A DNA stretch of 64,000 nt from Siphonodentalium dalli (lineage: Eukaryota > Mollusca > Scaphopoda > Gadilida > Siphonodentaliidae), in the NCBI GenBank assembly GCA_032622095.1, contig CP136069.1:125817450-125881449 (forward strand). The letters are read 5' to 3'. How positions within the stretch are numbered: position 1 is the first letter of the stretch; every line of letters starts with the position of its first letter. The translations under genes were made by a program, and so were the position numbers. A model generated the notes under the pieces. That model ran no database searches. It saw only the letters and a list, made by a program, of their open reading frames with translations, and was not told the DNA's origin. Positions 11,501 through 52,757 of the stretch are shown piece by piece.

Positions 11501-11576
11501 GTGACATTCGTATATTCATCCATTCTTATACCACAAAGCCCTGCCATCACATTTGATAACTGACTTATTCGAGAAA

Positions 11577-14568: not shown

Positions 14569-14619
14569 GATATCAATATTACGGAAGCACAGTAGCGCCA
14601 CAAATAAAATAATAATTAC

Positions 14620-14697
14620 GGCGTTTAAACGCCCTATTACGGCGTTTAAACGCCCTAAAACGCGTTTAAACGCCCTAATTACGGCGTTTAAACGCGA
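14620..14697. repeat. Left iteron array, GGCGTTTAAACGCC
   Basis: Four copies of the 14-bp palindrome, one imperfect (ACGCGTTTAAACGCC), lie directly inside the left terminus of the foldback element. Each is a perfect or near-perfect dyad, the form expected of a binding site for a dimeric protein. Confidence 0.85.
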
Positions 14698-15031
14698 CAT
14701 ATATGGAATGACTAGTGAAACTTCGGACTGAACCTTCGGACTACTGAACCCTACCCGATCAATGTCTGAACAGAATGAGGTCCCCTAGCAAATGGTGAAT
14801 TTGGTGATGCTATGCGGGGTAATATCTCTAAATTCACCCTCTGGGGACCTCATTCTGCAAATGTCAGGCACCTTATTTCCGGGCTTGATACCACCACTGG
14901 TATATGCGTTGGTTTGGGTGCAATGTGTCTAACAGTGAAACATGTGGTCCCCTGCTATAAGCATATGCCCTTTGCTATGTGCATATTCGACTACATGGGG
15001 GTGTTTTGAGTGCATTCTAGTTCATTTTGGA

Positions 15032-15175
15032 TTTTCGGAGAATCGGGCCTTCGGAGAATCGGACCTTCGGAGTTATGGGCTTTCGGAGAATCGGGCTTTC
15101 GGAGAATCGGGCCTTCGGAATTATGGGGTTTCGGAGAATCGGGCCTTCGGAGTTATGGGCTTTCCAGGGCTGGCA
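15032..15175. repeat. 16-bp minisatellite TTCGGAGAATCGGGCC
   Basis: There are about eight 16-bp units, alternating TTCGGAGAATCGGGCC and TTCGGAGTTATGGGCT. An inverted array of the same units lies at 17550-17690 in the opposite arm. The period is not a multiple of three and the unit has no stop, so the same repeating peptide is open in all three frames. This explains the apparent ORFs here. Confidence 0.85.
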
Positions 15176-15482
15176 TTCTCAGAAATCCGGGCGGGCTAAG
15201 ACCAGCCCTCCTCAATCAGCCTAGGTGGGCTATAGCCCTTCTCAGTGATGATGTCATAGCATGGACATTTTAGCCAACTACAGCGAAATCACATTCACGA
15301 TAATGGAAATAGTCATTATCTGAACTAAACTGCGTTAATAAATTTTACAAAGGCAGCCATTCCAAAATGTACCTCACCCCATATACTTTACCCACCCGAA
15401 TAAAGGCCATCGGTTATAGGGTGATAGAGCCAGAAACATTAATCGTGAGTCACTACTCATATAATGCAGTGGTCTTGTTATT

Positions 15483-16006
15483 GTGTTTGATGCACCAACT
15501 AATGGCTAAAATGTAGACAGTCATTTAATCTTATTAATGGTTCTCAATCTGATTAAGCACCCCTAAATTACTATTTCTTTGACTTCGGGTGTAAAAAATA
15601 ATTGATTCGAGTCGACGAACCTACCCATCAACGCTCAGAGTGATCAGATATCAACTTTCGAAGTTGTTTTACATCTATTGTTTGTGGCACAGAACACGCC
15701 GTCAACAGGATGTTCTCAGTCAAAATTGCGTTAGTATTACCATTTATTTTTAGTTATCCACCTTCGTCCGTTTGAATAAGTGTTTCTGTGGCAATTATCA
15801 GTACACATCTCGAGAAAATTACAAACTTCAAAAATCAATATCTCATCACTCTGAGCTTTGATGGATGGGTTCCTCGACTCGAATCAAATATGTTTTACCC
15901 CTGAAGCCAAAGAAATAGTAATTTAGGGGTGCTTAATCGGATTGAGTACCATTAATAAGATTAAACGACTGTCTACATTTTAGCCATTAGTTGGTGCATC
16001 AAACAC
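15483..16006. mobile_element. Nested inverted-repeat element (MITE)
   Basis: GTGTTTGATGCACCAACTAA at 15483 is mirrored by TTAGTTGGTGCATCAAACAC ending at 16006. The arms extend about 180 bp and include CTCAATCTGATTAAGCACCC and its inverse. It is related to the element at 13116-13464. Confidence 0.75.
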
Positions 16007-16024
16007 AACAAGCCGCCGGAGACG

Positions 16025-17232
16025 GCGGTATCCCCCGCCGAAATGTGCAGTTGGGGAAGTGCATTCTCAATAAAGTTTACGTTCTCAGTACGTGGTAAAT
16101 AAGAGGTGGGATTTTGTCAAAAAGGCTCGCGAACTCATTTTAGGTACTAGTCATGGGAACAAATATACCAAAACTCTTTTAAATCCGTTGATATAAATTT
16201 TGAGCAAAATTAAAAAAAAAAATATATTTGATAAAATATACCTCAATATCTCCATAACCATGCATAAATATTCTTAGAATGACATTTTACTTCTTGACAT
16301 CCCATATCACATGGTGGTCTGTGTACAGAACTGGAAAAGCATGTGTGTCCATTTTAATATTAGAGAGAAGTAGGTCGAGTATTCCTTCAAGTATATGTGT
16401 CGGCTGCACAACAGATTGATGTATTTTGAAGATGTTTTCAAGTTGAGACACATATTTCTCCTGATGGATGTTGAAATTGAAATCACCAGTGCAGATTATT
16501 GTAACAAATTTTAAAAAGTCCAATAACTCTGCTTAAAATAACCGGCCGGACCTGGTTTGCGAACTCATTCTAGATACAGGTCATGTGAACTCATTTACCG
16601 AATATCTCTGAAATCCATTGAGATTTGTGGAAATGAGCCCTGTGACGTCGTCCATTTGCACACACACAAATAAACAATGTCCAATAACTCTGCTTAAATT
16701 ATCCTGCCGGACCTGGTTTTCGAACTCGTTCTAGATACTGATCATGTGAACACAAATAACAAAAATCTTTGAAATCCGTTGACATTTGTGGAAATGAGCC
16801 CTGTGACGTTGTCTATATGCTATTTGGTAAATAATAAACAAAGTCCAATAACTCCGGTAAAAATAACCGGCCGGACCTGGCATGCGAACTCATTCTAGAT
16901 AATGGTCAGGTGAACTCATATACCAAATATCTTTGAAATCCATAGAGATTTGTGGAAATGAGCCCTGTGACGTCGTCTATATGCTATTTGGTAAATTCAA
17001 CAAAAATAATAAACAAAGTCCAATAACTCTGGTAAAAATATCCTGCCGGACCTGGCTTGAGAACGCATTCTAGGTAACGGTCAGGTGAACTCATATACCA
17101 AATATCTTTGAAATCCGTAGACATTTGTTCAAGTTCTGACTCGATCAAATTCGGGACAGACGGACGGACGGACGGACAGACGGACGGACGGAACCCATTC
17201 CTATATCACCCGCAAATTTTCAATTTGGCGGG
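16025..17232. mobile_element. Element with TATCCCCCGCC ends, internal tandem repeats and GACG microsatellite
   Basis: TATCCCCCGCCGAAAT near 16030 faces ATTTGGCGGGGGATA near 17215-17229. In between are four units of about 161-176 bp starting at 16518, 16679, 16843 and 17019. Each has GTCCAATAACTC, CCGGACCTGG and AATGAGCCCTGTGACG. A GGACGGACGGAC microsatellite follows at 17158-17191. I see no coding frame of its own. Confidence 0.6.
16280..16530 (-). pseudogene. LINE endonuclease fragment
   Basis: The minus-strand frame reads TGDFNFNIHQ, then FKIHQSVVQPTH, LDLLLSN and YTDHHVIWDV. These match the GDFN, QxVxxPTH, LDL and SDH blocks at the C-terminal half of APE-type LINE endonucleases. It is only about 80 residues long, with no RT nearby. 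It is a decayed scrap inside the element with TATCCCCCGCC ends. Confidence 0.7.
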
Positions 17233-18029
17233 GGATAATAACAAGAGCACTGCATTGTATGAGTAGTGACTCACGATTAATGTTTCTGACTCTATCACGC
17301 TATAACCGATGGCCTTTATTCGGGTAGGTAAAGTCTATGGGGTGAGGTACATTTTGGAATGGCCCCCTTTGTAAAATGTATTAACGCAGTTTAGTTCAGA
17401 TAATGACTATTTCCATTGTCGTGAATGTGATTTCGCTGTAGTTGGCTAAAATGTCCATGCTATGACATCATTCACTGAGGAGGGCTATAGCCCACCTAGG
17501 CTGATTGAGGAGGGCTGGTCTTAGCCCGCCCGGATTTCTGAGAATGCCAGCCCTGGAAAGCCCATAACTCCGAAGGCCCGATTCTCCGAAACCCCATAAT
17601 TCCGAAGGCCCGATTCTCCGAAAGCCCGATTCTCCGAAAGCCCATAACTCCGAAGGCCCGATTCTCCGAAGGCCCGATTCTCCGAAAATCCAAAATGAAC
17701 TAGTATGCACTCAAAACACCCCCATGTAGTCGAATATGCACATAGCGAAGGGTATATGCTTATAGCAGGGGACCACATGTTTCACGGTTTGCACCCAAAC
17801 CAACGCATATACCAGTGGTGGTATCAAGCCCGGAAATAAGGTGCCTGACATTTGCAGAATGAGGTCCCCAGAGGGTGAATTTAGAGATATTACCCCGCAT
17901 AGCGGCTAGCATCACCAAATTCACCCTTTGCTAGGGGACCTCATTCTGTTCAGACATTGATCAGGTAGGGTTCAGTAGTCCAAAGGTTCAGTCCGAAGGT
18001 TCACTAGTCATTCCATATATGTCGCATTA

Positions 18030-18219
18030 GGGCGTTTAAACGCCGTAATTAGGGCGTTTAAACGCCGCATTAGGGCGTTTAAACGCCGTAATTAGGGCGT
18101 TTAAACGCCGTAATAGGGCGTTTAAACGCCGTAATAGGGCGTTTAAACGCCGTAATTAGGGCGTTTAAACGCCGTAATTAGGGCGTTTAAACGCCGTATT
18201 AGGGCGTTTAAACGCCGTA
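18030..18219. repeat. Right iteron array, GGCGTTTAAACGCC
   Basis: Nine regularly spaced copies of the palindrome, joined by GTAATTA, GTAATA or GTATTA linkers, lie just inside the right terminus. The palindrome core is almost invariant while the linkers vary in length. This suggests the core is the selected or homogenised part. Confidence 0.9.
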
Positions 18220-18324
18220 ATTATTATTTTATTTGTGGCGCTACTGTGCTTCCGTACAATATAGTTTTAAAATTTGTTTAATTAAATTTGCGCCACTAAT
18301 TACACCAAATAGTCTTATACATAT

Positions 18325-18466
18325 AATATACGCATAGTGTTTCTGAATAACAAATTTAATCCACGAGTGGGATTGGCGATTTACACCACGAGCTTCAGCG
18401 AGTGGTGTAAATCGCCAATCCCACGAGTGGATTACATTTGTTATTCAGAAACATTATGCGTATATT
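18325..18466. mobile_element. Hairpin MITE of about 140 bp
   Basis: Arms of roughly 60 bp begin AATATACGCATAGTGTTTCT and end AACATTATGCGTATATT, around a loop near GAGCTTCAGCGAG. The inner arms GGGATTGGCGATTTACACCA pair almost perfectly. It lies between the foldback element and the Ngaro-like retrotransposon. The remaining 18467-18663 holds nothing recognisable. Confidence 0.75.
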
Positions 18467-18665
18467 TTGTTTATGCCGCGATCTTTACAATGCGATGGAT
18501 AAACACTTTTCCGTTCAAATTGTATGGAGAAAGTTTAATCCACTCTGCGAAGTTTAATCAACAGTAGGCACGTTTAATCAACAGGTGTTGATTAAATGTA
18601 AAATTTAAACCGATGGCTTTATTTATATAGTAAAATAGGCGACCGTGGTATAAAGTTATATATAA

Positions 18666-18998
18666 GATATTTACAAAGTAAAACTATTTATGTCAGGACG
18701 AACCAGTATCAATTCATTCTGTTGCAGGCCACACCGGGCCGTTCTTTCCGCTAGGGGTCGACAGAATGTAAACATCACATGGTATAAAAGACACAACGAA
18801 GTACCGTGTGCATAGTAAGTGAGGTGTGCATATTTAACCAATCACAGGGCGCGTTGCTTAACAGTGTTGGCTGTTAACCAATCGTATCACGCGTTAGAAA
18901 GCGCAGTTCGTAACTTAGCGTCAGGACGCTAATTATTATTCATCACTTCCAGGAATACACAATACGGACAAAACAACAATCCAAAATAAATAATTTTC
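18666..18998 (+). repeat. Ngaro-like element split repeat A1 (333 bp)
   Basis: It starts GATATTTACAAAGTAAAACT and ends AAATAAATAATTTTC. It is repeated at 25831-26163 with identical length and almost no differences (for example GGGCCGTT versus GGGTCGTT). It holds TATAAAAG at about 18783 and CCAAT-type motifs (AACCAATCACAG), and so probably carries the promoter. Confidence 0.9.
18782..18790 (+). promoter_or_regulatory. Candidate TATA box of the Ngaro-like element
   Basis: GGTATAAAAGAC lies inside the A1 repeat, about 320 bp upstream of a good splice donor and 460 bp before the hydrolase ATG. The copy in A2 would be near the 3' end. Position and sequence are suggestive only. Confidence 0.35.
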
Positions 18999-19248
18999 TT
19001 TTTCCATTTATATATTCTTTCCGGCTAACTTAGTATCTTTCTGCGAAGATCTTCACCAGGACAACTGAATAATATTTAACATCCACCGACCGTCATTTTA
19101 TAAAGGTGAGTTTACCTACAGTTTCTGACTGTTTATAACTTAATATAAGAGTTTCGATTTGTGGTGTCTTGGAATTCGCGGAGAACTTTTGTCTCAGACT
19201 GTTTTCAAATTCAGTTTGCGTTCGTTTTTGTTTTCATTTCTGTTGAGA

Positions 19249-19921
19249 ATGCCGGTCAAAGTCTTGATTTTTGGGTCGAGTCATGTTTCACATTTTGTGA
19301 GGGATTTATTCGATGGGGATCGAGCGGCATCGCATCCAATTAAGCGGGATTGTCGTTTGCCTTTGCAGTTAGACAGTTCTAGCGTGGTGGTGAAATGTTT
19401 TGGAGTATCAGGTTTTCGAATCAGCGACATCACGGAGGGAATTCGGGGGCGTATTCGAGGTTTTAAACCGGATGTCCTCCTTGTTATGTGTGGAGGAAAT
19501 GATCTTTCTGATCAGTCACCTGATCATGTGTTTCAATGTCTGCTTGGTCTGGTTTTACACTTCGAGGAAAAATTTCGGCTCAAATTTGGTCCGCATCTTC
19601 GTGTTTGAGGTTCTTGAGCGCCTCCAGGTACGTCTGCCCGGTCCCGACAGGATCAATACGAAAGACCCGGGAGCTGTGGCAGCTTTTAATGCCAAAGTCA
19701 TGGAACTTAATATTGCTCTCAGGAACCGCTTGAGTCGGAATTCTCGGTTGGCTTTTTATTGGCCATTGCGTCGCCTTGCTACCATGGCCAAAGACCTCTT
19801 GGAGGATGATGTTCACCTAAATGCAGCAGGCAACCAGCGTTTGCGTCGCAATGTCAAACAAGCCATTGTTCACGCACTTCGGGAATTTGAGTTGGCCCCA
19901 GGGGGCAATACTGGTAAGTGA
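19249..19921 (+). pseudogene. SGNH/GDSL-type hydrolase ORF of the Ngaro-like element (one frameshift)
   Basis: The frame starts at ATG 19249. All three hydrolase blocks are visible: FGSSHVSHF (block I, nucleophilic Ser), CGGNDLSD (block III, Gly/Asn), and DDVHLNAAG (block V, Asp-His). The first part is open to 19608. The second continues in the next frame (VFEVLERLQVRLPGPDR) to a stop at 19919-19921, so a single indel near 19585-19605 splits an otherwise complete protein of about 220 residues. The ATG follows a strong pyrimidine-tract splice acceptor by one base. The natural substrate of such retroelement hydrolases is not established as far as I know. Confidence 0.85.
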
Positions 19922-20821
19922 ATGTTCACTCACAGGATGTTTTTTTGTTTTCCCCCACAATTTCATATCTGGGGTGCAGTCTCTCTATGTGTCCGGTTGG
20001 AAGAATTATGGTGGTTAAGTTGCTCGTTCATCAACCTGCAGTGGTGTGGTGTTTCTATATGTTGACAAGCCTTAAGGGTTCACTGTGTTTCAAGGCTCTT
20101 TGCTAGCATTAATTACCAATCTCATAGGCCTGTTTGCTAGTATTAATTACCAATATCATAGGCCTGTACCGAACACATCTCTCCTGCCGCTGATCTCTGC
20201 TTTGCAGGGTTATTTACTACATGTCTTGTTATCTGTCAGTGTGCTTGTGGGAGTTATTTATCATTGCTGTGTTCTGGTGTTCCATGCCTCTATTATGCCT
20301 GGGTCAAATTTCATGATCAGTGTTTCTCTAACTTGTAAACACCTCTCCTCTAGCACCACTTATCTCTGCTCTGCAGGGTTATTCATGGGGTGATATATCT
20401 CAGTGCACTTTTAAATTATATGTATCAGTTTTCACTGTTATGAGTAGTGTCACTGATCTCTGCAGTGCAGGGTTATCACTGAACTGTTATCTTTCAGTGT
20501 GCTTTTGGGGTTATGATTGTTAATATTGAATTATTTGCCATTTATTTGCTATTCATTAGAAGACCATAATTCTTAATATTGTACTTATCCCTGCCATGCA
20601 GAGTTTGTTCGGATGATATGAATAATATCCATGCTATACAGGGTTCCAATGAACTATTATCTTTCAGTGTAATTTTTGGATTAATTTATATAAACACATC
20701 ATAAGTACACAAATTAATTTAAGCAGATACCGTAGGACGTAGAGTGTAATATTTCTTATCCACTCGGGGAGCGGTGGCTCATCAGAACTCTGTTACTCGC
20801 TTCATTGTTGTTTGCTTTCAG
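19922..20821 (+). other. Ngaro-like element inter-ORF region, possible intron
   Basis: There is no long frame. Repeated motifs TCTCTGC(T/A)..TGCAGGGTTAT and TTATCTTTCAGTGTG recur about every 60-130 bp between about 20190 and 20670, making a loose tandem. It ends in TTGTTTGCTTTCAG directly before the Gag ATG, an excellent 3' splice site. GTAAGT at 19914 is a matching donor. Confidence 0.5.
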
Positions 20822-22012
20822 ATGCCAAAAGCTACAGCGAAACGTGCCGATCGGGGCCCGCAATCCAGCATGACCACCCCTGCACGCAGAGGACGAGGCC
20901 GGCCTTCAACGAGGGGCAGACGGGGTCGCAGTGCTAATGCAGCTGACACAATCGAGGATGGCCTATCGCATATGACATATAATCAGAGTGACAATCAGGC
21001 AAACCATACAATGACCTTGAACTCACGCAGGCAAACTCAGACACACGATTTAGTGTGCATTCCAGACATTCTTTCGCCAGCCCAAACAAAACAGGTGATT
21101 GTGGAGCTGCAGCAGAAGTTGTTTCAGATGCAGTCGATGCCAACAGCTGTTGACTTTGGTGAGGACATTATGCCCTCTCTGATATCCGCGGGTAGCCAGG
21201 GTCCTATAATGGAAGACACATCCAATGCGGGCCCCTCTTCTTTGATATGCTTGCCGTCTTTGGCCAATGGGGCTGGCCCCTCAAAGGTGGTGAATTCCGC
21301 AATTCCATTGGCAGCCCATGTTACACCAGCATTGAAAAGAAAAGTATGGGCCGATGAATATGTGGAATTCTCCTCACTGCTTGACCATGGCAGTTCTCAG
21401 ACACAATATACCATTGATGTCAATCCGTCTGGGGAGGGCTCACCTCTAATTTGCGTTCCCAAACCGGTTCGCAAAATTAATGATATAGACCAGTGGCTCA
21501 CTGCATTTGAGATTTTTAAGGATATCTATCTCACAAAATATCCATCCACTTCTAAAGCTCTTAATCAATACCAGAGCTTCATTCGATCAATGGCCAGGGA
21601 CGGCGCCAATTGGGCTTGGTATGACAGGCAATTTCGGCTTTTCCGCCAGTCTGATGAGAATCTGACCTGGGATTCATTACATTCCATACTCTATACAAGA
21701 GCCAACAAACCTCGCCATATTCAGCCTCAGCAATCTCAGCGTGGCAACACTTTTCGACGCACCGCTCCAAATTCAACTGCTCCAAATTCAATGCCAACAC
21801 AACGACGTCGATTTCCTCACGGAACATGTTTTAAATTTCATGGGTCAGGGTCCTGCGATGGATGTGAATTCCCACATAAATGTCTGGTGTGCGACAAGGA
21901 CCATTCCTTGCAAAAATGCCCCAGAAAGAATGAGTGGTTTCGGGGGAGCTTTCGGAGGAACAGTTCCTTTCGGACCCGAGGTGCCCCGAAACCATTCGGC
22001 TCTCGACCGTGA
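20822..22012 (+). CDS. Gag-like protein of the Ngaro-like element
   Basis: The ORF is intact, 396 codons from ATG 20822, the first ATG in a frame that is open from 20774. The N-terminus is basic and Arg/Gly-rich (RRGRGRPSTRGRRGRS). The middle has a WLTAFEIF...YLTKYP helical segment, typical of DIRS/Ngaro capsid-like regions. The C-terminus carries a CCCH-like cluster (C-x8-C-x2-C-x3-H) followed by a CCHC-like knuckle (CLVCDKDH...C), presumably binding nucleic acid. It overlaps the RT frame by about 270 bases in a +1-shifted frame. How RT is expressed (shift, re-initiation or splicing) is not shown. The start immediately after a splice acceptor suggests a spliced mRNA. Confidence 0.85.
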   Translation: MPKATAKRADRGPQSSMTTPARRGRGRPSTRGRRGRSANAADTIEDGLSHMTYNQSDNQANHTMTLNSRRQTQTHDLVCIPDILSPAQTKQVIVELQQKLFQMQSMPTAVDFGEDIMPSLISAGSQGPIMEDTSNAGPSSLICLPSLANGAGPSKVVNSAIPLAAHVTPALKRKVWADEYVEFSSLLDHGSSQTQYTIDVNPSGEGSPLICVPKPVRKINDIDQWLTAFEIFKDIYLTKYPSTSKALNQYQSFIRSMARDGANWAWYDRQFRLFRQSDENLTWDSLHSILYTRANKPRHIQPQQSQRGNTFRRTAPNSTAPNSMPTQRRRFPHGTCFKFHGSGSCDGCEFPHKCLVCDKDHSLQKCPRKNEWFRGSFRRNSSFRTRGAPKPFGSRP

Positions 22013-23639
22013 GTCACTGAACAATGTTGTGATCCACTGCAACCCTGGCAATTTACATGCACTTCGATCTGATTGTACAGTAGTTACACCAATCAATGTT
22101 CCAGCACTAGCTTTTCTTCTTCAAGGCTATGATCAACAGCAAGTTAATTTCCTAGTCAATGGTTTCCGGCATGGTTTCAATTTAGAATGTCAAATGTCGG
22201 TCATGAATTTACATGTTAACAATCTTAAATCAGCTCTGGAGCTGCCACATATTGTTGAAAAGAAATTGAAGGCCGAGCTAGCTGCTAATCGTATAGCAGG
22301 CCCATTTCCTGCTCCTCCATTTGCATCATTTCACGTTTCACCACTTGGAGTGGTCCCAAAGAAAACACCAGGGGAGTATCGCATGATACACCACTTATCT
22401 TTTCCGGAGGGTTGTCCCGTTAACGATGGTATACCGCATGAACAATCAGTGGTTCACTACTCCTCCGTGCAGGATGCCATTACAATTATCAAACAAACCG
22501 GGGTTGGGGCAGTGCTTTTGCGTATTGATGTACTTTCTGCCTTTCGTTTGGTGCCAGTCCGAATGGAGGATCATCACTTGCTGGGTTTTAAGTGGAATGA
22601 GTGCCTGCCAATGGGTTGCAGTCGGTCATGTCTTTTGTTCGAGAGCCTCAGCACTGCAATTGAGTGGATAGCCACCACAAAACTTCACATACCACTGGTG
22701 CACTATCTTGATTATTTCTGTCTGATCCTTAGCAGCTATAAAGAAGCCGATTTGGCATTACAATTATTTCTGGACATGTGTGATATTTTAGGGGTTCCGA
22801 TAGCACATGAGAAAACCCTGGGCCCAAGTACAACTTTGGAATTTCTCGGCATACAGTTGGATTCATGTCGCATGGAGGCTACTTTGCCTTTGGACAAAAT
22901 TAAGAAATGTCAAGCAGAAATTAGGCAACTTCTTAATATGGAGAAGGCTACACTCAAACAACTTCAATCAATCATCGGTACTCTGAGTTTTGCCTGCTCG
23001 GTGGTCGTTCCTGGTCGGGTGTTTCTGCGACGGCTTATTAACATATCTATGAAGCTCAAGCACCCATCCCACCGGGCACGACTGACGAGGGAGGTAAAGC
23101 TTGACTTGCAATTATGGCTTTCTTTTCTGCAGGGATATAATGGAAAAACTTTCTTTTTAGAGGAACAGTGGATTTCTGCAGATAAAATTCACATGTACAC
23201 AGATGCTGCCTCCACCCTTGGGTTTGGCGGTATTTGTGGCAAGTTTTGGTTTTATGGGGAATGGCCACCTGCAGCCAAGAGGCTTAACATTGCCATTTTG
23301 GAGCTTTATCCCATCTGGTTAGCCCTTAACATTTGGGGACATCGTTAAAAAAATCATAAGCTCATGCTCCATTCGGATAATGCGGCAGTTGTGGCTATCA
23401 TTAATTCTCAAACAACTACAGATTCTAGTCTTTTAAAACTTCTTCGTTTGCTTGTCTTAATTACACTCAAATTTAATATCGTTATTCGATGTCAGCATAT
23501 TGCGGGTAAGGACAATCGCTTATCGGATCTGCTCTCGAGGTTGCAGGTAGACGAGTTCAGACAACAGGCGCCATGGGCAGTAGCCGAACCTACAGCGATA
23601 CCACCTCAGCTGACCATCGGCAACTTATTTCCACTATGA
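21741..23639 (+). pseudogene. Reverse transcriptase-RNase H of the Ngaro-like element
   Basis: The open frame runs 21741-23348; no clear start is known and the first part overlaps Gag. RT motifs in order: PLGVVPKKTPGEYRMIHHLS, LLRIDVLSAFRLVPV, LPMGCSRSCLLFE, then YLDY at 22704-22715, where the family has YLDD. The second catalytic aspartate is therefore Tyr. FLGIQLDS and the connection domain follow, then RNase H (MYTDAAS, AILELYPIWLAL). An in-frame TAA at 23346-23348 interrupts RNase H, which continues in the same frame (LHSDNAAVVAIIN, HIAGKDNRLSDLLSR) to 23639. Both changes should inactivate this copy. Confidence 0.9.
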
Positions 23640-24526
23640 AGCATCTAGCTGATCAGGCTATGGCCACGACAACTAAAGAAACTTACAGCAAATATTGGGG
23701 AAACTTTTTAGCTTTCTGTCAGAAGTATAATCTTTCAACCGAAATACCTATCTCGGTTGGTACGGTTTGTCTTTTTGTGGCCCACTTATATAATGCTTCT
23801 TATGGGGTGGCAACAGTACGCACGGTGTTATCGGTTATTAGTTTCTTTCATAAAATACAAGGTGTCGGTGACCCAACTAAAGATTTTTATCTCCAGAAAT
23901 TAATCATTGGTTTTCAAAAGTCTCGTCCTTCCTGCGACCTCCGCATGCCTGTCACATTGTCCTTACTTGAGCGTTTCCTACAAGCAATTCCGCAGTGTGT
24001 ATCGAGTAACTATCAATCTAGGCTTTTCAGCGCAATGTTTGTTTTTGCCTTTTTTACCTTGTCTCGCATCGGAGAAATCTGTGTTACACGCGAATCACAT
24101 TCCCATATGGTTATAACAGCAAATGATGTTATTTGGAAAGAAGACGAGATCGTAATACGGTTTCGTCATTTCAAGCACAATGTTTCAGGGACACCACACT
24201 TTATCGCAATCCGGCCTCGATCGGCAGAGTTACTTTGTCCCTTTCGGATTATGCAGCAGTATAGGCAGACTCGGGGTCATGCCGAAGCCCCCCTATTTTG
24301 CCACCCAGATGGCAAAGGTATTCATTGCCGTTTGTTTGATCAAGTATTGGCACAAGTTTTGACATACCTTAATTTAGATGGGCAAGTCTTTAAAGCGCAT
24401 TCATTCCGTATTGGCGGTGCTTGTCTTGCCGCAGCACGTGGTTTCTCCGATGCACAGATTCGGTCTTTAGGTCGATGGCAGTCAGACGCATTTAAAAAGT
24501 ACATCCGTCCACCAGTTCTTTATTAA
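23573..24526 (+). CDS. Tyrosine recombinase (YR) of the Ngaro-like element
   Basis: An intact 317-residue frame from ATG 23573, overlapping the end of RNase H by about 67 bases. It has an N-terminal SAM-like core-binding region (TYSKYWGNFLAFC) and a complete catalytic set: R165 in LSRIGEIC, H276-x-x-R279 in AHSFRIGG, W302 in LGRWQSD, and Y310 in KKYIRP. Recombinases of this kind integrate a circular DIRS-class intermediate without target duplication. This is the only ORF besides Gag that looks undamaged. It could therefore still act in trans if expressed. Confidence 0.93.
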   Translation: MGSSRTYSDTTSADHRQLISTMKHLADQAMATTTKETYSKYWGNFLAFCQKYNLSTEIPISVGTVCLFVAHLYNASYGVATVRTVLSVISFFHKIQGVGDPTKDFYLQKLIIGFQKSRPSCDLRMPVTLSLLERFLQAIPQCVSSNYQSRLFSAMFVFAFFTLSRIGEICVTRESHSHMVITANDVIWKEDEIVIRFRHFKHNVSGTPHFIAIRPRSAELLCPFRIMQQYRQTRGHAEAPLFCHPDGKGIHCRLFDQVLAQVLTYLNLDGQVFKAHSFRIGGACLAAARGFSDAQIRSLGRWQSDAFKKYIRPPVLY

Positions 24527-25829: not shown

Positions 25830-25830
25830 A

Positions 25831-31579: not shown

Positions 31580-31639
31580 TACATGGTTATACACACTGTG
31601 AAAGAATTTCCTGAAACATTGTTTAGAAAATCAACTTAT

Positions 31640-37120: not shown

Positions 37121-37149
37121 ACCCTATCGATTTAAAAATAAAACTAAGG

Positions 37150-37603: not shown

Positions 37604-37605
37604 AT

Positions 37606-39699: not shown

Positions 39700-39706
39700 A
39701 TAACAT

Positions 39707-40036: not shown

Positions 40037-40039
40037 CTA

Positions 40040-40308: not shown

Positions 40309-43300
40309 TAGTCCAGGAGATATTGGTCAACCTCTGCACCCCCCCCAGGACTTAACTTCACCCCACTAATTTTCTTCCTTAAGGTCTCCTCTAATTTTTT
40401 TCACTTGTTAACAAGAAAAAAAAGTGGCCGCAGAGACTCCAGACAAGATGGCGTCCATCATGGCGGCCATTTTTTTTAAATGCACCAGGTCTCTTTGATT
40501 GCCGTTATAGTAAAGATGATGTCACATGCCGTCCTGTTTTCCGCTCGATTCGTTATGCTAATATACAACCCTTACAAATTAGCCAAAAATCCGACACCAG
40601 AATCCAATATGGCGGCCAAGATGGCCGCCGAAATGTGAAATTATGCTATTTTTCTGTCATGTTACCACCTTTCGTTTGTCTCTGTGGGAAAATGTTAGAA
40701 TATTTGCGTCATGTTATACATTTATCATATAGAGGAGTCATTGGCGAATACATGGGGACCATAATATGCATTCATTGCGGGATATTTTTGTCCGATATCA
40801 CGTTTTCCCAAATGCCGGTATCATAGGTCAAAGCCGAATCTCCGTTAATAACGCGATGTTATGTTTCGAATCAATTAATGTTATTGCTATTATAACAACA
40901 CCCATGCATATATATTTGCAGGAGATACTCGAGCTAGGATTCCTCTTATACCTGAGTCGAGGAATATTTACCCAAATCCAAGATGGCGGCCAAAATGGCC
41001 ACCAGAAATAAAAAATCGCTGAAAATCGCTGATTTTAACATCAGTGAGCATTATTGTCATGACAACTCCACACCTGCTTACTATTGTAAGTTGGGAACAC
41101 TTAGGCGAAGAACTTTCCTTGTACCATATCCAAATAAAAGTCCCCCAAATCCAAAATGGCGCCCACAATGCCGGACAGATTTTGAAAAATCACCGAAATT
41201 CCCTCATATTCACATCATTGGGCATTATTGTCGAGACAACTCCATCCATGCGTACAGTTGAGTTGGAAATACTGAGGTGAAGTAATTACCTTACATCTCA
41301 TGCAAGAAAAGGTTTTCCAAATCGAAGATGGCGGCCAAAATGGCGACCGAAATTTGAAAACACGCCTACATTCCTTTACTTTCTTAGGATGGGCGTTATT
41401 GTTTCGCGATTTCTACCCACCATTACATGTTGATATGTATGAATTATTCATTATGGTTTGGCAAGTGATACTCGCAGTCAATATGGCGGCCAAACTGGCG
41501 GGCAGAAATTGAAAAGAAGCCGATATTATCACATACTAATTTCATCTTTTTGTCATAATATTAATTTGTATAAACGAAGCGGTACATAATATAAGCCATC
41601 TATTAGTTCCAAAGTAAGTCGTAGCCTTTTGGAAGGATGAAAACACACAATCGCGATGTGGCATTTCAAAATCCATTCTCCACTAAGGGCTCATACTGGC
41701 CGTAACCGTATATAGGTGCGCCGAATAGTCATATTATGACTTCCAAGAATCAAACAACAGTACCTGAGCTTATTCTGAATTGCCACATTCAGCATTGTCT
41801 AGACTCGTTTCCGTCTCTTCGTCAGATTAATCTATCTCACTCACAACAACAGTTCACTACTCTTCTTCGTAGAAGGGTGCCACTAATCAGAATGTTTCAA
41901 ACAATACATATGCCGGTGTCCAGCTCACGTGTTTGTTTCGAAAGCTTGGAATTCTTAGCGATCGATCGAGCTTCATTCGTGGTATAGCTTATGGTATAAT
42001 TCAGATGCTACATATGGGGTATATGCGTCATCTTGTGCGATACACTATAAAGGTATATTCGGTCGATGCGTATACTAGCTTTCAGAAGGACATATCTATC
42101 TGCGTATTGTCAGCTTTGGTGACCTAATGGGGATAACAACGTGCTAAGGCGTAGAAGACCATAATGCATAATATACCCAAACTCCTTGACCATGATCATA
42201 AGAACAAGCTTGTTGGCGTCCAGCAATCGCCTCACCGAACAGTTCCAAGCAGATGATAACAATACACACGGTGCTAGTTTGTGGGTATGTGTCACGATAG
42301 TGGAAATGAAATTGGACCATGACTGCACCGCCCCATATTTGTTATGTTTTAGATTCAGACAGGATCTCATGTGTGGCTTTGCTTTCCTTGTATGCTAAGA
42401 TTGTATATTCCCATCAGTTTGGAAGCCGTTCTTAAACAACTGGACCAGGAGTATGCCATTGACTACTGTTGTATAAGCCCCACCAAGACTGGGGTGTAGT
42501 CTTAAAGGCGATACATTTGATAGTTGGTTGATATGTCATACTCACGCTGGGTGGTATGGTTCAAGAAAGTACAAATGCCATCAACAAAAGGGTGAAATGT
42601 TCAACGCGAAGAACATCCAGAGGAATGTTACGTTGATGAGCTCTTGCATTCAGTTAAACAAACGTTGGTACACCAAGTGATTTCTTGGTAACATCACCAT
42701 TGCGACCATTTTCCTACATGAGACATTAACTACTATATTCTAAAGTTATATATATATAAAGCTATATGATCATAAAGGTCGCGTTCCCCAACGTCCACTG
42801 CCATCGAGACTGTAAATTGTTCTTTAAACACATAGTGAAATAAATGCACCACAGTTCCTGACATTTTCTTGAATAATAACGCCCACATACTGACACTAAC
42901 CCCGAGAGAGGATAACAAAACACGCATACATTCATGCTATAAAGATATTATCCTTTAGTCCATCCGACTGTTTTGAGGGAGGCTGGCATAGTATTATCCA
43001 GACAAAAGTGTACGTAGTTGAATCAGAAAGGCTTCGAAACGGATGTGGAAATACAATCTTACCACACCAAATAAAACAGACACGCATGACATTCGATATC
43101 TTAAACATGCACCAGGTGTAGGGATGGTGTATAGAGTGGCTCATTTCATTCCCACTATCATGGCGCATGTTCACAATCTAGCACCGCGAGCATTGTTCTT
43201 CTCTGCTGGGAGATATTCGACGATACAACCGCGGGGCGTCATACAGTTTGCTTCGGATAATGGTCAAGAAGTGTGGGTAGTCTGTACACTAGGGTCTTCT

Positions 43301-45232
43301 CCTTAGCAGATAGACATCTGTCCAAGGGAATGAGACAGCTAGCAACCTTCGAACCACTGTCGAAGTTGTCCACATATGCCAATGCGTTCGCTGAGTTTGT
43401 GAGTTGACGAACCGTCTATTGAGAAGTGACTAGCTAACTGGTTCGCCAGGTGTACATGTCGTTATCCCATGGGGTATGAGACACATACATAGAGATGACC
43501 TTCTGTAAGCTTGTATACTCATCGGCCATATGCCTTCCTAGTTCAAGATGACGCACAAATATCATAGTTAGCAAATATTTACAATCGTAAGCTAGACACC
43601 GGAAAATGAATTGTTTGAAACGTTATGATTAGAGGGACCCTACTCCCAGGAAGTGGTGAATACTTTGTCGGTGTGAGCGACCTAGATTTATCAGACAAAG
43701 AAATGGAAGCTGGTCCAGATAATTATGGACGTGACGTGGCAAATCAGAATCTGTTATCGGGTAATTGTTCTGATATAACTATTTGGCGCACCACGCTTAC
43801 GGCCATTATCGGCGCTAAGTGGAGACTGGATTTCGAAATACCACATCGCGATATTAATAGTGGTTTTTCATCTTTCCAGAAGGATAAGAGCTATGTTATG
43901 CGTGTTGATACCTTCAAGTTGAACTAGTAGATGGTTTATGTACAGTTTCGTCCATACATACCGATATTATGACAAAAAGTTGAAATTAATATGTGAAAAT
44001 ATCGATTTCTTTTCAATTTCTAGCCGCCAATTTAGCAGCGATCTTGGCTGTGAGTATCAATTGCCAAACCCTAATGAATACTTCATGTCACTATTCCATA
44101 TCAACATGTAATGGTGGGTAGAAATCGCGAAACAATAACGCCCATCCTAAGAATGTAAAGGAATGTAGGCGTGTTTTCAAATTTCGGTCGCCATTTTGGC
44201 GGCCATCTTCGATTTGGAAAACCTTTTCTTGCATGAGATGTAAGGTAATTACTTCACCTCAGTATTTTCAACTCAACTGTACGCATGGATGGAGTTGTCT
44301 CGACAATAATGCCCAATGATGTGAATATGAGGGAATTTCGGTGATTTTTCAAAATCTGTCCGCCATTGTGGGCGCCATTTTGGATTTGGGGGACTTTTAT
44401 TTGGATATGGTACAAGGAAAGTTCTTCGCCTAAGTGTTCCCAACTTACAATAGTAAGCAGGTGTGGAGTTGTCATGACAATAATGCTCACTGATGTTAAA
44501 ATCAGCGATTTTCAGCGATTTTTTATTTCTGGTGGCCATTTTGGCCGCCATCTTGGATTTGGGTAAATATTCCTCGACTCAGGTATAAGAGGAATCCTAG
44601 CTCGAGTATCTCCTGCAAATATATATGCATGGGTGTTGTTATAATAGCAATAACATTCATTGATTCGAAACATAACATCGCGTTATTAACGGAGATTCGG
44701 CTTTGACCTATGATACCGGCATTTGGGAAATCGTGATATCGGACAAAAATATCCCGCAATGAATGCATATTATGGTCCCCATGTATTCGCCAATGACTCC
44801 TCTATATGATAAATGTATAACATGACGCAAAAATTCTAACATTTTCCCACAGAGACAAACGAAAGGTGGTAACATGACAGAAAAATAGCATAATTTCACA
44901 TTTCGGCGGCCATCTTGGCCGCCATATTGGATTCTGGTGTCGGATTTTTGGCTAATTTGTAAGGGTTGTATATTAGTATAACGAATCGAGCGGAAAACAG
45001 GACGGCGTGTGACATCATCTTTACTATAACGGCGACCAAAGATACCTGGTGCATTAAAAAAAAATGGCCGCCATGTTGGACGCCATCTTGTCTGGAGTCT
45101 CTGCGGCCACTTTTTTTTCTTGTTAACAAGTGAAAAAAATTAGAGGAGACCTTAAGGAAGAAAATTAGTGGGGTGAAGTTAAGTCCTGGGGGGGGGGGGG
45201 GGTGCAGAGGTTGACCAATATCTCCTGGACTA
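40309..45232. mobile_element. 4.9-kb palindromic (foldback) element with near-identical outer arms
   Basis: The ends TAGTCCAGGAGATATTGGTC (40309) and GACCAATATCTCCTGGACTA (ending 45232) are perfect inverts. The 3-bp direct repeat TAT flanks them (40306-40308, 45233-45235). The arms match over their whole length. The outer 1.1 kb each side (for example 41040-41280 versus 44254-44490) is almost identical, while the inner parts (41500-42700 versus 42800-44050) are clearly diverged. The centre is near 42770. Many CAAGATGGCGGCC/GGCCGCCATCTTG motifs recur along the arms. No transposase is recognised; frames inside are short. Related fragments lie at 12585-13790 and 46803-47177. Confidence 0.8.
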
Positions 45233-45235
45233 TAT

Positions 45236-47177: not shown

Positions 47178-47841
47178 CTAACCGAGATATATATAGGACA
47201 GGACGGACGAGTCGGGAGTATAGACTAGAAACATACATGTGTAACACTTACCGGACGGGACACAAACATGAGCACGAAAGGACGTGCATGACCTGTTTGT
47301 TCCAAATAGCTATACATTTTCGGCCCACAGTTTCGTTCCACTTCATTAAAGACGGTCTTGTTTTCACGTCCTCAAAGTCTAGATATTTTCGGACTGGCCC
47401 ATGGCAAAACTGTTAAACATATATTACCGTTACTCGACGGTTATCAGTTTTTCAAACTCGACCAAAACGATATTGGGTCCAAAACGTTTGGTCATGCAGG
47501 GTGTCTATAAACCAATTAACCCATGCAGGTCCCAACACCTTTCGGTCCGAGCAGCTCTCGTCTTTTGTGAAGTGCATGGGACGAAAATTCAAGCCGAAAA
47601 TCTATTCACTCATAGCCGTTTGGACCAAGTGGGTCCCGTCCCCTCCCATTCCGCTTGTGTCCGGTCACGATCCAGTTATGGTTAGGTTAAGTGTCTCGTC
47701 CCGTCCAGCTAGTCCTCTCCAAGTTAAGGTCGTCCGATCCCGTCATGCCTCACACCGCTATATGACCAATCCCGGCTCGTCACGTCACGTTCCTTCTCAT
47801 CCAGCCCGGCATGCGTGGTCAGGGTTTGAATACCAGCCCGT
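47178..47841. other. GC-rich repeat, interrupted by the next element
   Basis: There is no gene. From about 47640 it contains GTCCCGTCCC, GTTATGGTTAGGTT and TGGTCAGGGTTTGAATAC, similar to 52758-52960 and, inverted, to 12370-12584. The foldback element at 47842-52751 is inserted in it. Confidence 0.45.
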
Positions 47842-47865
47842 TATGGCAAGCCGTTTTCACATTTT

Positions 47866-48490
47866 TGGGACTTAAGTCCAAATAGCGAATTGGACTTAAG
47901 TCCAAATGCCACATAATTGTGAATTCGGCGAGGAATTGTACTTAAGTGCAAATGAATTACACTTAAGTGCAAATACTGATATTTTCATCTATTTAGACTT
48001 AAGTCCAATTCCTCGCCGAATTCACAATTATGTGGTATTTGGACTTAAGTCCAATTCATTTGCACTTACGTGAAATTCAACTGTATAAGAAACACCCCCA
48101 TCAGATATTAAGCAGGTCCATCATTTGGACTTAAGTCCAATTAGTGGATTGATTTGGACTTAAGTCCAATTAGTGAATTGATTTGGACTTAAGTCCAATT
48201 CATTTGGACTTAAGTCCAATTATTTGGACTTGAGTCCAATTATTTGGACTTAAGTCCAAATATTCACTAATTTGACTTAAGTCAAAATCAATTCATTAAT
48301 TGGACTTAAGTCAAAATCATTTGGACTTATGTCCAATTATTTGGACTTAAGTCCAAATAATTGGACTTAAGTCCAAAATATTTGGACTTAAGTCCAATTA
48401 GTGAATTGATTTGGACTTATGTCCAATTCATTTGGACTTAAGTCCAATTATTGGGCTTTAGTCCAATTATTTGGACTTAAGTCCAAATGC
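47866..48490. repeat. Left array of TTGGACTTAAGTCCAA palindromes
   Basis: Roughly 20 or more units, many perfect, spaced irregularly by AATTAGTGAATTGATT or short AT linkers. Variants keep dyad symmetry: TTGTACTTAAGTGCAA and TTACACTTAAGTGCAA near 47936-47970 change both half-sites or nearly so. Confidence 0.9.
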
Positions 48491-49727
48491 TAAGTAGGAA
48501 CTAGATGACATATCTGGACATGCCATAAATGTATTTATTTTGACACATGGGCATGCATCCATGGACCTTTCCCTACTTACAGGGGCGTATGTAGCGTATC
48601 TATTTAAGACTGAGAACCAATTACTTTGATTCATCGTATCATTGATGAAGAACGGACGTATGAATTTGGTGCAAACTAGCGCTAAACATATTTGTATCAC
48701 TATCAGTTTCGGTGACCCTCACCTACCCTCCCCAATCGTATCACAAAGGTGACTTCCATTCCTTATTCGAATAGTTATATTTATGTCGAACAAAGGGTGT
48801 TAATTGTTGGGTGGCCACCATGGCACTCTTTACATACACCCGATCCCAAAATGGTCACTGTCCAGATGGGTTCAAATGCCATTTCTCAGCCCCCTGACCG
48901 AATTAGGTCACACAAATGGCGTTATACGAGCACAACTTGATCTCCAGCAGTTCGGGAGTGACGTCATTGGATGGTAATCATGTTGTGGAACAACATTAGA
49001 ATGCACACAGCTGGTTTCCGTTGTTAGCGACAGCGTCCTTATAGAAACGTCAACATACACAACGTATTTTCGTGCAATCGGCGGCGACCTCTTTCTAAAA
49101 GATCAAATGGTGCGCCCCAAATATAATTGTTTAAAGTTCAGTTTGTTAAGTCTGTAACTTGATTAAGCAACTGGAAGTTTGTTACTATAAAATATACGAT
49201 ATTCTTCCATCCGTGAGCTGGTGAATTTGCACTACCTATAATCGATATCGGTGCTATAGTCTAGACGAGTGCTAGTAGTGCTACTGGCTACTGCTCAACT
49301 TCAAGTTCATTCATAAACAACCAAATTCACATGACTGCTACATATACTCGTACAATTCAGTTTTTTTTTCATTTAGAACTTTACGCGAATCATAAGATTT
49401 TATTAGAAATCACAACATGGTCCATGCTATGATATTTTTCCTGCACAATTTAGAAATATAATTATAATATAAAGCGGACTATTTCGCTGTGCAGTCGTAT
49501 GAATACAAAACTTTCATTATCAGGTTTAGTCTCTACTATACATATAGGGGCCTGAACCCTAATTCCAGATTCCAGCATGCAATTTTCTGTTTGTTAATTG
49601 AACAGGTTCTGTTGCACATGCAGGCTCCAAAATAGCGTGTGTTCTGTCCCTTCTGTCATAACGAAATAAACCCATAAATTATTCTCTCAACTAGTAATGG
49701 CTGACAAAAAAAAACACACTTGCTGGC
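48491..49727. other. Interior of foldback element 2, non-coding
   Basis: I see no gene and no clear repeat in this stretch. It is ordinary AT-rich sequence between the left array and the inverted copy of the G/C-run element. Confidence 0.4.
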
Positions 49728-52041
49728 AGGGGGGGGGGGGGTCTGCAAAAAAAGTCCGTATATAGGGCCGGGGTGGGTGGGTGTTACAGAGGCCGAAAAA
49801 ATTGTGCTTGTAATTTTTTTCCAAATTTTTTTTTTTTCAAACAATTTACAAGTACTGACCATGTAATGTTGTTTGTAAGCATTTTAGTACCATGCTTGTT
49901 GGTATAGGGCTATATAGGCAGCTAAAGTGAATCTTTAGCCTCAGGTTTAGCAATATTCTGGATTTCACAGGATCCCGGACCACTTCACAGTGGACCACCG
50001 TAATAGCGTTCAGGAAACTTATGATCAACGGAAGAAATATTTAGTAACAAAATTAATATATTACCCAGTTGTATACCTGAATAAAAGTAATAAAACAAAA
50101 AAACTGTATCACAAATTGGATACTACATGGTGAATACTCAATGATGACTAGATATCATTAACCTGATTGTTGCATAACATGAAATTGAAAAGGGTATCTC
50201 ATAAATTTCTAATGTCTGAAATACTGTCTTGCATGTTCTGGCATGTAATCAAATTCATTCCTTCTGGTTATTTCTCATATTGAATGATTGCAAGTAATGT
50301 TAATTTGCAACAATTATCCAAATAAAACTGAATTGGTTATGATGAATGACCGTTACTATTTACTCAGCAGCTCAGACAATCCCAACTGAAGGTGACGCTA
50401 TTCTCATTGAATTTCCGAACTTTATCTTGGAGCTTTACTGCTCAACAAGACTAAACTAGAGGTGTGACTGTCCCAATGGGACTACAGATACCCCCCTGTT
50501 TTTAAAATACTAAGATGTTTCACATGTCAGTAAACATTTAGTTAAAATAATAAAATAACAGTTCCCATTGCAGGTGTACAACCATAACCCTAATCTTATA
50601 CCTATTGACCGAAAAATGTAGGAATAAAAGCTTAGACAAAATTATGTATGTTGCGAAAAAATTTCTAAGTCGAAAAAGGGGAATAACTCCACACAAAAAA
50701 TGTCGGACAGACATCATAATCGCAGGTGCACAGGTTCCCATGGTACTAAATATCAGTGCCAAGATTAAAAAACATTAATCGAAAAATGTAGAAATAAAAG
50801 CTCGGACAAAATTATGCATGTTGCAAAAAACAATTCTAAGTCGAAAAAGGGGGATAACTCCACCAAAAAATGTCGGACAGACGTCATAATCGCAGGTGCA
50901 CAAGTTCCCATGGTACTAAATATCTGTGCCACGTTTTAAAGAAATTGACCGAAAAATGTAGGAATAAAAACTCGGACAAAAGTATACATGTTGCGAATTT
51001 TTTCTAAGTCGAAAAAGGGGGGATAACTCCACCAAAAAAAGTCGGACAAACGTCATAATCGCAGGTGCACAGGTTCCCATGGTTGTTGATGTCTGCGCCA
51101 AGTTTCACGGAAATTGATCAAAAAACGACTGAGAAAAACTCCGGACAAATTTGTGTCCACGGACGGACGACGGACGGACGACGGACGGACGGACGGACAA
51201 GCTGACTCCAGTATACCCCCCCTAACTTCGTTGGGGGGGGGGGTATAACTAAAATACTAATTGTATACTGTTATCACTTACAAATAGATGAACAGACATA
51301 ATGTGATGCATTAAGATGCATTGAGAAATTACATTCTGGTAGGCATTGATGGTCATAACCCGTGATATTATGCATATTCGTCCCCCATTTCTGGTCCGTC
51401 ACCATGCCATAGGGCATCAAAATATGACAACCGACTCTTGAGTTATAATGCAAAATGTTTTTACGGACGGACGGCTCGAGACGTCAACTATATACCCGCC
51501 GACTAACATCTGGCAGTAAAATAACCATATCTCTATGTGTATACCTAACCAAAAACAATTCCCCTCCCCCACCCACCCCGTTGGATAAGACTAAAGAGTT
51601 CTTTGGTCATGCACAAATAATTGTGGAACGCCTGATCTGTTTACCACTATTTACACTGGCCAGTGTTCTCTGACAGACACAACACACTCGATATATTAAG
51701 GCTATAATGGGGTCTAGGGCGATTTGTGACATATAGTGTACCTACACACTGCTTTATTATTGTTGTTAGATACTGAATACACCAGGAAACACATGGAAAT
51801 ACAGTTTATTTTTCGTTTTTCTGATCTGTGTTTACCAATTAGTAAGGCAGTTAACACAGTTATTGAAGAATGGCTAAAAAAAACTCTGAAATTTTGATAA
51901 AAACATGAGAAAGGGGGGTTGGTCCCCAAAATTTTGGAGGAAAAAAATATTTTTGTGCACAAATGGGATGGTGGGTCCCTCGGGTCGAATTATTTTTTTT
52001 TTGGGCCCTATATGTGCAATTTTTTTCCAGACCCCCCCCCC
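49728..52041. mobile_element. Element with G/C-run inverted ends, copy 2 (inverted)
   Basis: The left end is a G run followed by TCTGCAAAAAAAGTCCGTAT. The right end is TGCAATTTTTTTCCAG followed by a C run. Blocks match copy 1 (27634-29236) in reverse complement. It carries an extra 50.03-51.33 kb segment that copy 1 lacks, and lacks copy 1's 289-bp insertion. Confidence 0.65.
50530..51245. repeat. 170-bp tandem repeat with GGAC microsatellite
   Basis: Units beginning GAAAAATGTAG(G/A)AATAAAA start at 50611, 50781 and 50951 (period 170). Each contains AAGTCGAAAAAGGGG, ATAACTCCA and ATCGCAGGTGCA. They are followed by GGACGGACGAC repeats (51167-51199) and a TATACCCCCCCTAACTTCGT end with a G run. 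The build resembles that of the 16025-17232 element: tandem unit, then GGAC tract, then a C- or G-run end. Confidence 0.7.
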
Positions 52042-52196
52042 ATGTTGCTGGGGAGAAATTCTTGTAAACATAATATAAACGAAACTGCATGTAGCATGTG
52101 CGTTGTCAAATAACAATTGAATCAAATCGTGAATTAATGTTACTTCATTCAATGATTCATACATACAGTAAGCATTTATTAAGATGTCAATTTGGG

Positions 52197-52640
52197 TTCG
52201 AACCATGTTCAATGATGCCGAAAACAAGCCACGTAGCAAAAGGGACGCAATTGTATGGCGTTTGACTGTCAATCAAGACTTGCAGGAATATATCGTTACA
52301 AAGAAGGGGACTATCGTTTTAAACCAGATGAATTGGACTTAAGTCCAAATGAATTGGACTTAAGTCCAAATCAATTCACTAATTGGACTTAAGTCCAATT
52401 ATTTGGACTTAAGTCCAATTATTTGGACTTAAGTCCAAATCATTTGGACTTAAGTCCAATTAGTGAATTGATTTGGACTTAAGTCCAATTTATTTGGTCT
52501 TTAAGTCCAAATGATTTGGACTTAAGTCCAAATAGCGAATTGGACTTAAGTCCAAATACCAAATATGGAGTTTGACTGTCAAGCAAGACTTGCAGGAATA
52601 TACCATTACAAAGAAGGGGACTATCGTTTAAAACCAGATG
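52197..52640. repeat. Duplicated 75-bp segment around the right iteron array
   Basis: GTTTGACTGTCAATCAAGAC...GAAGGGGACTATCG at 52259-52330 recurs at 52566-52640 with few changes, and each copy is followed by iterons. This indicates that the array grew by duplication of larger blocks. Confidence 0.75.
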
Positions 52641-52735
52641 AATTGGACTTAAGTCCAAATGATTTTAACTTAAGTCCAATTATTTGGACTTAAGTCCAAT
52701 TAATTGGACTTAAGTCCAAATAAATCAAAAATGTG
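52331..52735. repeat. Right array of TTGGACTTAAGTCCAA palindromes
   Basis: About 14 units of the same 16-bp palindrome as the left array, ending close to the right terminal inverted repeat. Confidence 0.9.
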
Positions 52736-52757
52736 AAAACGGCTTGCCATAGCCCGT

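Follow-up and report, generated by a model that had tools for sequence, protein, structure and literature searches.

Here, we describe two transposable elements in a stretch of 64,000 nucleotides from the scaphopod mollusc Siphonodentalium dalli (GenBank assembly GCA_032622095.1, contig CP136069.1, forward-strand positions 125,817,450 to 125,881,449), hereafter called the window. Both elements carry dense arrays of a short perfect palindrome (the iteron) just inside their ends, and a comparison with copies elsewhere in the genome supports one design with a family-specific palindrome, found in three families. Judging from the sequences, these are probably IS3EU-like cut-and-paste transposons whose iterons would bind dimers of the transposase or of a partner protein, with one code per family, and of which the two window elements are non-autonomous members.

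Element 1 (family 1) covers 14580-18256 (3,677 base pairs, bp); it starts with TACGGAAGCACAGTAGCGCCAC, ends in the exact reverse complement, and has CAATAT on both flanks. Its parts, in window positions, are the following.

14574..14579, unstranded: target duplication CAATAT on the left, as read from the sequence
14580..14619, plus strand: left tip, TACGGAAGCACAGTAGCGCCAC..., with an exact inverted copy at the right end
14620..14696, unstranded: left iteron array, four copies of GGCGTTTAAACGCC, two of them with one mismatch, in steps of 20-22 bp
14691..15482, plus strand: left foldback arm, inside the array; inverted repeats I1, I2, I4, and I5, 96-98% complementary
17237..18028, minus strand: right foldback arm, from the inverted-repeat analysis
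18031..18216, unstranded: right iteron array, nine perfect copies of GGCGTTTAAACGCC in steps of 21 or 22 bp
18217..18256, minus strand: right tip, an exact inverted copy of the left tip
18257..18262, unstranded: target duplication CAATAT on the right, as read from the sequence
14148..14282, plus strand: candidate empty site, a paralogue of the host repeat of element 1 without the element, from the joined-flank comparison

Behind its TACGG tip, element 1 thus has 13 iterons (11 perfect copies of GGCGTTTAAACGCC and two with one mismatch), four on the left and nine on the right. The candidate empty site lies about 0.3 kilobases (kb) upstream, and the joined flanks of the element match it with 84% identity over 139 columns spanning the junction, closely to the left of the junction and more loosely and with gaps to the right. 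A near-perfect hairpin at 18317-18474 (78-bp arms, 88%) adjoins the element and is possibly a small hairpin element; a relative occurs inside a family-1 copy elsewhere (L036:2410-2569; L numbers denote fetched loci).

Element 2 (family 2) covers 47842-52751 (4,910 bp); it starts with TATGGCAAGCCGTTTTCACATTTTTG, ends in the reverse complement, and is flanked by GCCCGT on both sides.

47836..47841, unstranded: target duplication GCCCGT on the left, as read from the sequence
47842..47867, plus strand: left tip, TATGGCAAGCCGTTTTCACATTTTTG, with an exact inverted copy at the right end
47866..48486, unstranded: left iteron array, 22 copies of TTGGACTTAAGTCCAA within three mismatches
52333..52719, unstranded: right iteron array, 13 copies of TTGGACTTAAGTCCAA within three mismatches
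52726..52751, minus strand: right tip, an exact inverted copy of the left tip
52752..52757, unstranded: target duplication GCCCGT on the right, as read from the sequence

Here the tip is TATGG, and 24 of the 35 iterons (22 left, 13 right) are perfect. The tips, exact 6-bp duplications, and dense palindrome arrays given in a preliminary description of the window were all seen in both elements, the tips being exact inverted repeats. That description also called both elements foldbacks, which holds for element 1 only, a true foldback with arms of about 900-1000 bp that are 96-99% complementary. In element 2, inverted complementarity is limited to a 26-bp tip and to the arrays, whose palindromic sequence lets them pair with one another. 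When the whole window was scanned for perfect palindromes of 10, 12, or 14 bp occurring at least three times per 1 kb, the arrays of the two elements were found and nothing else in 64 kb, and 20 block shuffles of the window gave no clustered palindromes at 10 bp and none at 12 bp.

Each of the two elements represents a family whose ends number from dozens to hundreds in this genome (2.23 gigabases in nine contigs). For family 1, 95 exact 13-mer ends were counted genome-wide with 21 for the reversed-pattern control, so that some of the 95 are due to chance; for family 2, there were 711 exact 15-mer ends (control 0). We sampled 20 family-1 loci from 27 convergent pairs (counted by eye, the window's own pair being included in the count only) and 20 family-2 regions, all on contig 1, from the first 100 of the 711 places, with longer pairs preferred. 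An exact 6-bp duplication is present at 17 of the 20 family-1 loci and is missing at L021, L026 (which shares 4 bp), and L034; L017 and L018 have common flanks and look like one duplicated insertion. Family-2 ends are paired in 17 of 20 regions (no pair in L074, L078, and L079), and 13 of these 17 have an exact 6-bp duplication, L068 being off by one base and L071, L076, and L086 having none. Counted by pairs, to which L033, L080, and L085 contribute two each, a 7-bp duplication with the same ends fits none of the 33 pairs of the two families, although the boundary is ambiguous by one base in 13 of the 33 (an A precedes the duplication). The sampled copies thus do not refute the shared design on the grounds named beforehand, namely deviating boundaries or duplication lengths. 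The target base next to the element is C in 33 of 74 half-sites of the three families, the duplicate L018 being left out (P 8e-7 vs an assumed 19.5%), a preference seen in family 1 (19/34) and family 3 (6/10) and not in family 2 (8/30). Tandem duplications have left L033 with three and L085 with two copies of the right end plus flank, as if the arrays promoted unequal exchange.

Genome-wide, the family-1 palindrome GGCGTTTAAACGCC has 1,293 sites (control 1) and the family-2 palindrome TTGGACTTAAGTCCAA 3,931 (control 0). By eye, 47 of the first 50 listed GGCGTTTAAACGCC sites lie within 5 kb of another one, and 48 of the first 50 listed TTGGACTTAAGTCCAA sites lie within 2.5 kb of an exact family-2 end; among these listed sites, iterons are thus not found mainly outside such elements, which would have spoken against the preliminary description. 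In the fetched loci, whose mostly 200-bp flanks favour closeness, an exact end is no more than 700 bp away from 242 of 264 family-1 iterons and from 317 of 345 family-2 iterons.

Family 2 also has a second symmetric form, TTGCACTTAAGTGCAA, with 843 sites (control 0), and the L073 arrays, as well as those in the final part of L074, consist of such forms, several of them imperfect. Hybrids with one arm each of TTGGACTTAAGTCCAA and TTGCACTTAAGTGCAA have 242 sites (control 1) vs about 1,557 expected for independent arms, in counts that derive from related copies and not from independent events. In a set of 456 family-2 iterons (the window element plus 20 regions, copies related by descent), the fourth base covaries with its partner: both arms are changed in 38 iterons vs 12.8 expected, 20 of them to the complementary base.

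A third family was reached through a Pfam search of the genome for the rva_4 domain (at least 126 matches, with 150 of 241 candidates scored). Four of these matches score equally, and the 3.4 kb fetched around one of them (L087) hold a 346-residue frame with an rva_4 match (E 4e-26) and a helix-turn-helix match (E 0.02, under the cut-off of that model), as well as a probable C-terminal exon. The D in R-x-D-x-G-x-E-N and the E in N-x-R/K-I-E are conserved across seven aligned proteins. Beside this transposase frame are 32 perfect copies of another palindrome, CCTGATATATCAGG, in steps of 21 bp (16 times), 22 bp (14 times), and 43 bp (once); the array stops upstream of the likely start codon, at 95 bp if an imperfect copy is counted and at 116 bp for the first exact one. 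At the far edge of the array we read the terminus TACGGCGGCCTGGAACC, which has a TACGG tip and GTTTTA beyond it. The tip based on TACGGCGGCCTGGAACC, predicted from this one copy, matches 254 times genome-wide (122 + 132; control 0), and CCTGATATATCAGG has 3,921 sites (control 5), the first 50 listed all falling in two bounded elements. The proposal of a shared design with family-specific palindromes is thus borne out by a family with its own palindrome, a TACGG tip, 6-bp duplications, and an adjacent rva_4 transposase gene.

Two copies of family 3 are giants. In the first, the mate end lies 28,218 bp from the L087 end, at C4:26576442 (C numbers denote contigs), and is preceded by GTTTTA; the second runs from C4:60622662 to C4:60649741 (27,080 bp) between two copies of TATATC, and one more of the four rva_4 matches falls inside it. 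In both giants, a 190-bp probe taken midway in the first one lies 13.97 kb from rva_4, in the same orientation; genome-wide, it matches seven places. The other matches are one on C7 about 16 kb from the third rva_4 match, one on C9 that is 100% identical and has no listed rva_4, and three at 81-84%; at the fourth equal-scoring rva_4 match (C5), the probe finds nothing. The giants appear to be units rather than nested accidents. Among ten 190-bp samples of the first giant, L107, L111, L112, L113, and L114 match repeats in the other sequence analysed, and the open pieces L105 and L109 have no Pfam family above the cut-off. The family-3 transposase gave no match to solved structures at E up to 1, and of 27 pattern matches to relatives in viral contigs none was confirmed.

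Exact 6-bp duplications flank every one of the nine family-3 pairs tested, yet one target repeat (GAAATC or its complement) is common to five of them, so that the distinct target sites number five. The five pairs with the common target lie at the same point of one host repeat (L091-L094, L097-L102; C1, C2, and C4), and the element may have multiplied inside another repeat. Of the 38 convergent pairs among the first 100 listed ends, 32 are 2-3 kb long and are presumably deletion derivatives.

The three families can be compared in the spacing of their ends. The tips of families 1 and 3 agree in 15 of 22 bases, and that of family 2 agrees with each of the others in 9 of 22; the palindromes of families 1 and 3 are unrelated in sequence. 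Family 1 has an iteron within 400 bp at 37 of its 42 exact ends in the fetched loci, with the first dyad at 47 bp from the tip at 21 of the 42 ends, at 46 bp at four, and at 68 bp at five. At six of six measurable ends of family 3 (L087, L088, L089, both ends at C1:24054624, and the left end at C1:79600533), the first iteron begins 40 bp inward from the tip, with its dyad at 47 bp. Measured from centre to centre up to 60 bp, the steps between iterons are 21 or 22 bp in 163 of 206 cases in family 1, with 41 of the remainder being double steps of 42-44 bp, and in 40 of 40 cases in family 3. The phase coherence at 10.5 bp is 0.93 and 0.96, respectively. Families 1 and 3 thus have the geometry in common and the letters not, which would be expected if a diverging DNA-binding domain reads the letters and a common assembly reads the geometry. 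The symmetry coupling of the two family-2 palindrome forms, the pitch of about two helical turns, and the preferred distance from the tip suggest that the iterons are putative dimer-binding sites.

In the mechanism that we propose, a DDE core would act at the conserved tip, and a helix-turn-helix dimer, either the transposase itself or a partner, would bind each palindrome. Neighbouring dimers, about two helical turns apart and nearly on one face of the DNA, could then form a cooperative filament that marks the element end and brings both ends together. Since the family-3 array stops about 100 bp before the likely transposase start, the filament may also control expression of the transposase. 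Short derivatives, such as the two window elements, would move in trans as long as tip and iterons are kept, and with a palindrome of its own for each family, the transposase of one family would not serve the others.

As to the autonomous relative that the preliminary description proposed to look for, an rva_4 gene is present in two bounded family-3 copies, and the family-1 and family-2 copies that were fetched revealed none. Among the 40 fetched loci of these two families, stop-free frames and tblastn revealed no autonomous copy. Their longest frames have 124 residues in L025, L033, L034, and L036, 120 in L073, 163 in L022, and 126 in L024. Searched against Pfam, the frames of L019 (173 residues) and L079 (169 residues) have no match; the family-2 pair of nearly 12 kb in L079 was read over 10 kb. 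A 189-residue stop-free frame in a family-2 region (L086:1153-1719) has a match below the cut-off to a GDSL hydrolase (E 1.4e-5). We infer that families 1 and 2 are served by an rva_4 enzyme. As a separate observation, another rva_4 transposase exon recurs about 20 times with little variation at L040-L062 (L053 and L059 excepted), mostly as a 294-residue frame; this exon family is probably recent, and no palindrome clusters occur within 1.5 kb of its copies.

Besides the relatedness of the copies behind the hybrid counts, several observations weigh against the proposed design and mechanism. In family 2, the first dyad lies at 40 bp and not at 47 bp (27 of 42 iteron-bearing ends, from 45 ends in total), the steps are less regular (20 or 21 bp in 131 of 234, followed by 29 bp 31 times, 24 bp 15 times, and 46 bp 14 times), and the phase coherence is only 0.53. 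Of the 456 family-2 iterons, 189 are off-consensus, with only seven perfect palindromes among them; a single change thus mostly lacks its counterpart on the other arm. By eye, the first 50 TTGCACTTAAGTGCAA sites include 27 isolated ones, nine near an exact family-2 end, and 23 within 5 kb of another. Some copies are poor in iterons (L025, with two exact ones) or free of them in one half (L036 and L068). When the fetched family-1 and family-2 copies were searched by tblastn, ten rva_4 proteins gave nothing better than E 0.4 and pieces of the family-3 protein nothing better than E 3. Finally, 30 other rva_4 loci show no array of this kind up to about 1.5 kb from the domain, a range that stops short of their ends.

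One could also imagine, although we regard it as rather unlikely, that the iterons bind a dimeric host transcription factor, the arrays acting as enhancers that drive transposase expression or open the chromatin while the transposase reads the tip only. Perfect dyads suit many host factors, and the position of the family-3 array 95-116 bp upstream of the likely transposase start fits such a role. Three families in one genome would, however, require three different host factors; moreover, copies without a recognised transposase gene usually keep arrays at both ends, and the preferred distance of the first dyad from the tip suits end assembly better. A reading of the arrays as satellite-like expansions without a function, generated at the ends when copying is driven by hairpins or slippage, is quite improbable. 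The same pitch and the usual tip distance recur in families 1 and 3 despite their unrelated sequences, and the family-2 hybrids are about six times rarer than independent arms predict, against which stand the wide variation in iteron number (2 to 25 exact ones in family-1 copies), the tandem right-end duplications with flank in L033 and L085, and the scarcity of perfect palindromes among the variant family-2 iterons (7/189).

Among known systems, En/Spm, Ac, P, and Galileo have subterminal repeats that are read by the transposase. They resemble the present elements in having many short binding motifs inside both ends that are kept by non-autonomous copies, but differ in their ends and in their duplication lengths, and their motifs are not known to be perfect palindromes spaced at two helical turns. 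Foldback elements (Drosophila FB, sea urchin TU, and Galileo) share with element 1 the long near-perfect inverted arms with internal tandem repeats; the tips, 6-bp duplications, and palindromic iterons set the present elements apart, and a foldback structure is missing from element 2. Plasmid and phage iterons and multi-operator arrays likewise repeat dimer sites near whole helical turns beside the gene of the binding protein, whereas here the arrays stand at both ends of a eukaryotic transposon.

The filing under IS3EU in the preliminary description agrees with the termini and the duplication length, but no transposase was found for family 1 or family 2. In the parts of the literature consulted, TA..TA ends are stated to be constant and 6-bp duplications usual in complete IS3EU families, which are joined with GingerRoot (Kojima 2023, PMC10045372), fungal IS3EU with a TET/JBP gene have TAYGG..CCRTA ends and 6-bp duplications (Kojima 2025, PMC12730594), and the IS3EU/GingerRoot DDE transposase is described as lacking the HHCC motif (PMC10045372, PMC12730594). 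In the window and the fetched copies, all three families have TAY...RTA termini, and exact 6-bp duplications are present at 17 of 20 loci in family 1, at 13 of 17 loci with a pair in family 2, and in nine of nine tested pairs in family 3; the transposase gene of the two bounded family-3 copies is of the rva_4 type. Compared with IS3EU/GingerRoot as presented in those parts, the likeness extends to the TA..TA ends, the TAYGG..CCRTA motif, the 6-bp duplications, and, in family 3, a DDE transposase, and the difference lies in the dense, perfect, family-specific palindrome arrays and the transposase-bearing copies of 27-28 kb. Palindromic arrays are not mentioned in the consulted parts of the IS3EU literature (PMC10045372, PMC12730594, PMC8268682, PMC5844308, PMC9587614; Repbase entries lie outside this scope), including where palindromes are named in connection with other matters. 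Literature searches for the exact palindromes and tips gave matches that concern other subjects, judged by titles and abstracts, and those for subterminal or palindromic transposon repeats listed nothing resembling these arrays. In the literature searched, no two of the names rva_4, PF24764, integrase core domain, and IS3EU were found together.

Polintons likewise have an integrase-type DDE enzyme and 6-bp duplications. Another superfamily with such duplications, for instance a Polinton-like or GingerRoot-like one in place of IS3EU, is nevertheless very improbable, as no listed polymerase-B match lies inside the two giants (69 of 1,596 candidates scored) and TAYGG...CCRTA is given, in the part consulted, for the ends of fungal IS3EU (Kojima 2025, PMC12730594), even if IS3EU and GingerRoot are treated as one lineage with TA ends (Kojima 2023, PMC10045372). 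At least 149 polymerase-B matches (several per frame) occur genome-wide, in frames of up to 1,330 residues and all but one without stops inside the match, which suggests recently active Polinton-like elements.

As to the rest of the window, plus-strand frames at 11505-11858 and 53714-54289 resemble parts of what we take to be one rhodopsin-type receptor gene; if this reading is right, both elements lie inside an intron of that gene. Frames at 20750-24526 resemble, as judged by eye, a DIRS-like element's reverse transcriptase and tyrosine recombinase, and one frame pair on opposite strands (40395-41261 and 44273-45139) points to a large inverted repeat with copies about 3 kb apart.

Tentatively, we propose that an animal IS3EU-like lineage with transposase-bearing copies of 27-28 kb splits recognition into a TAYGG tip for catalysis and phased dyads for identity, where the dyad would change symmetrically with the DNA-binding domain of the transposase, allowing many families to share one genome without cross-mobilisation. 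If true, this would be a natural, readable code by which a transposase tells its own ends from those of relatives that have a similar tip and the same geometry but a different dyad. Family 3 makes this code testable, as both a reading frame for the transposase and about 4,000 candidate sites are known, and a poorly described superfamily would gain members of 27-28 kb.

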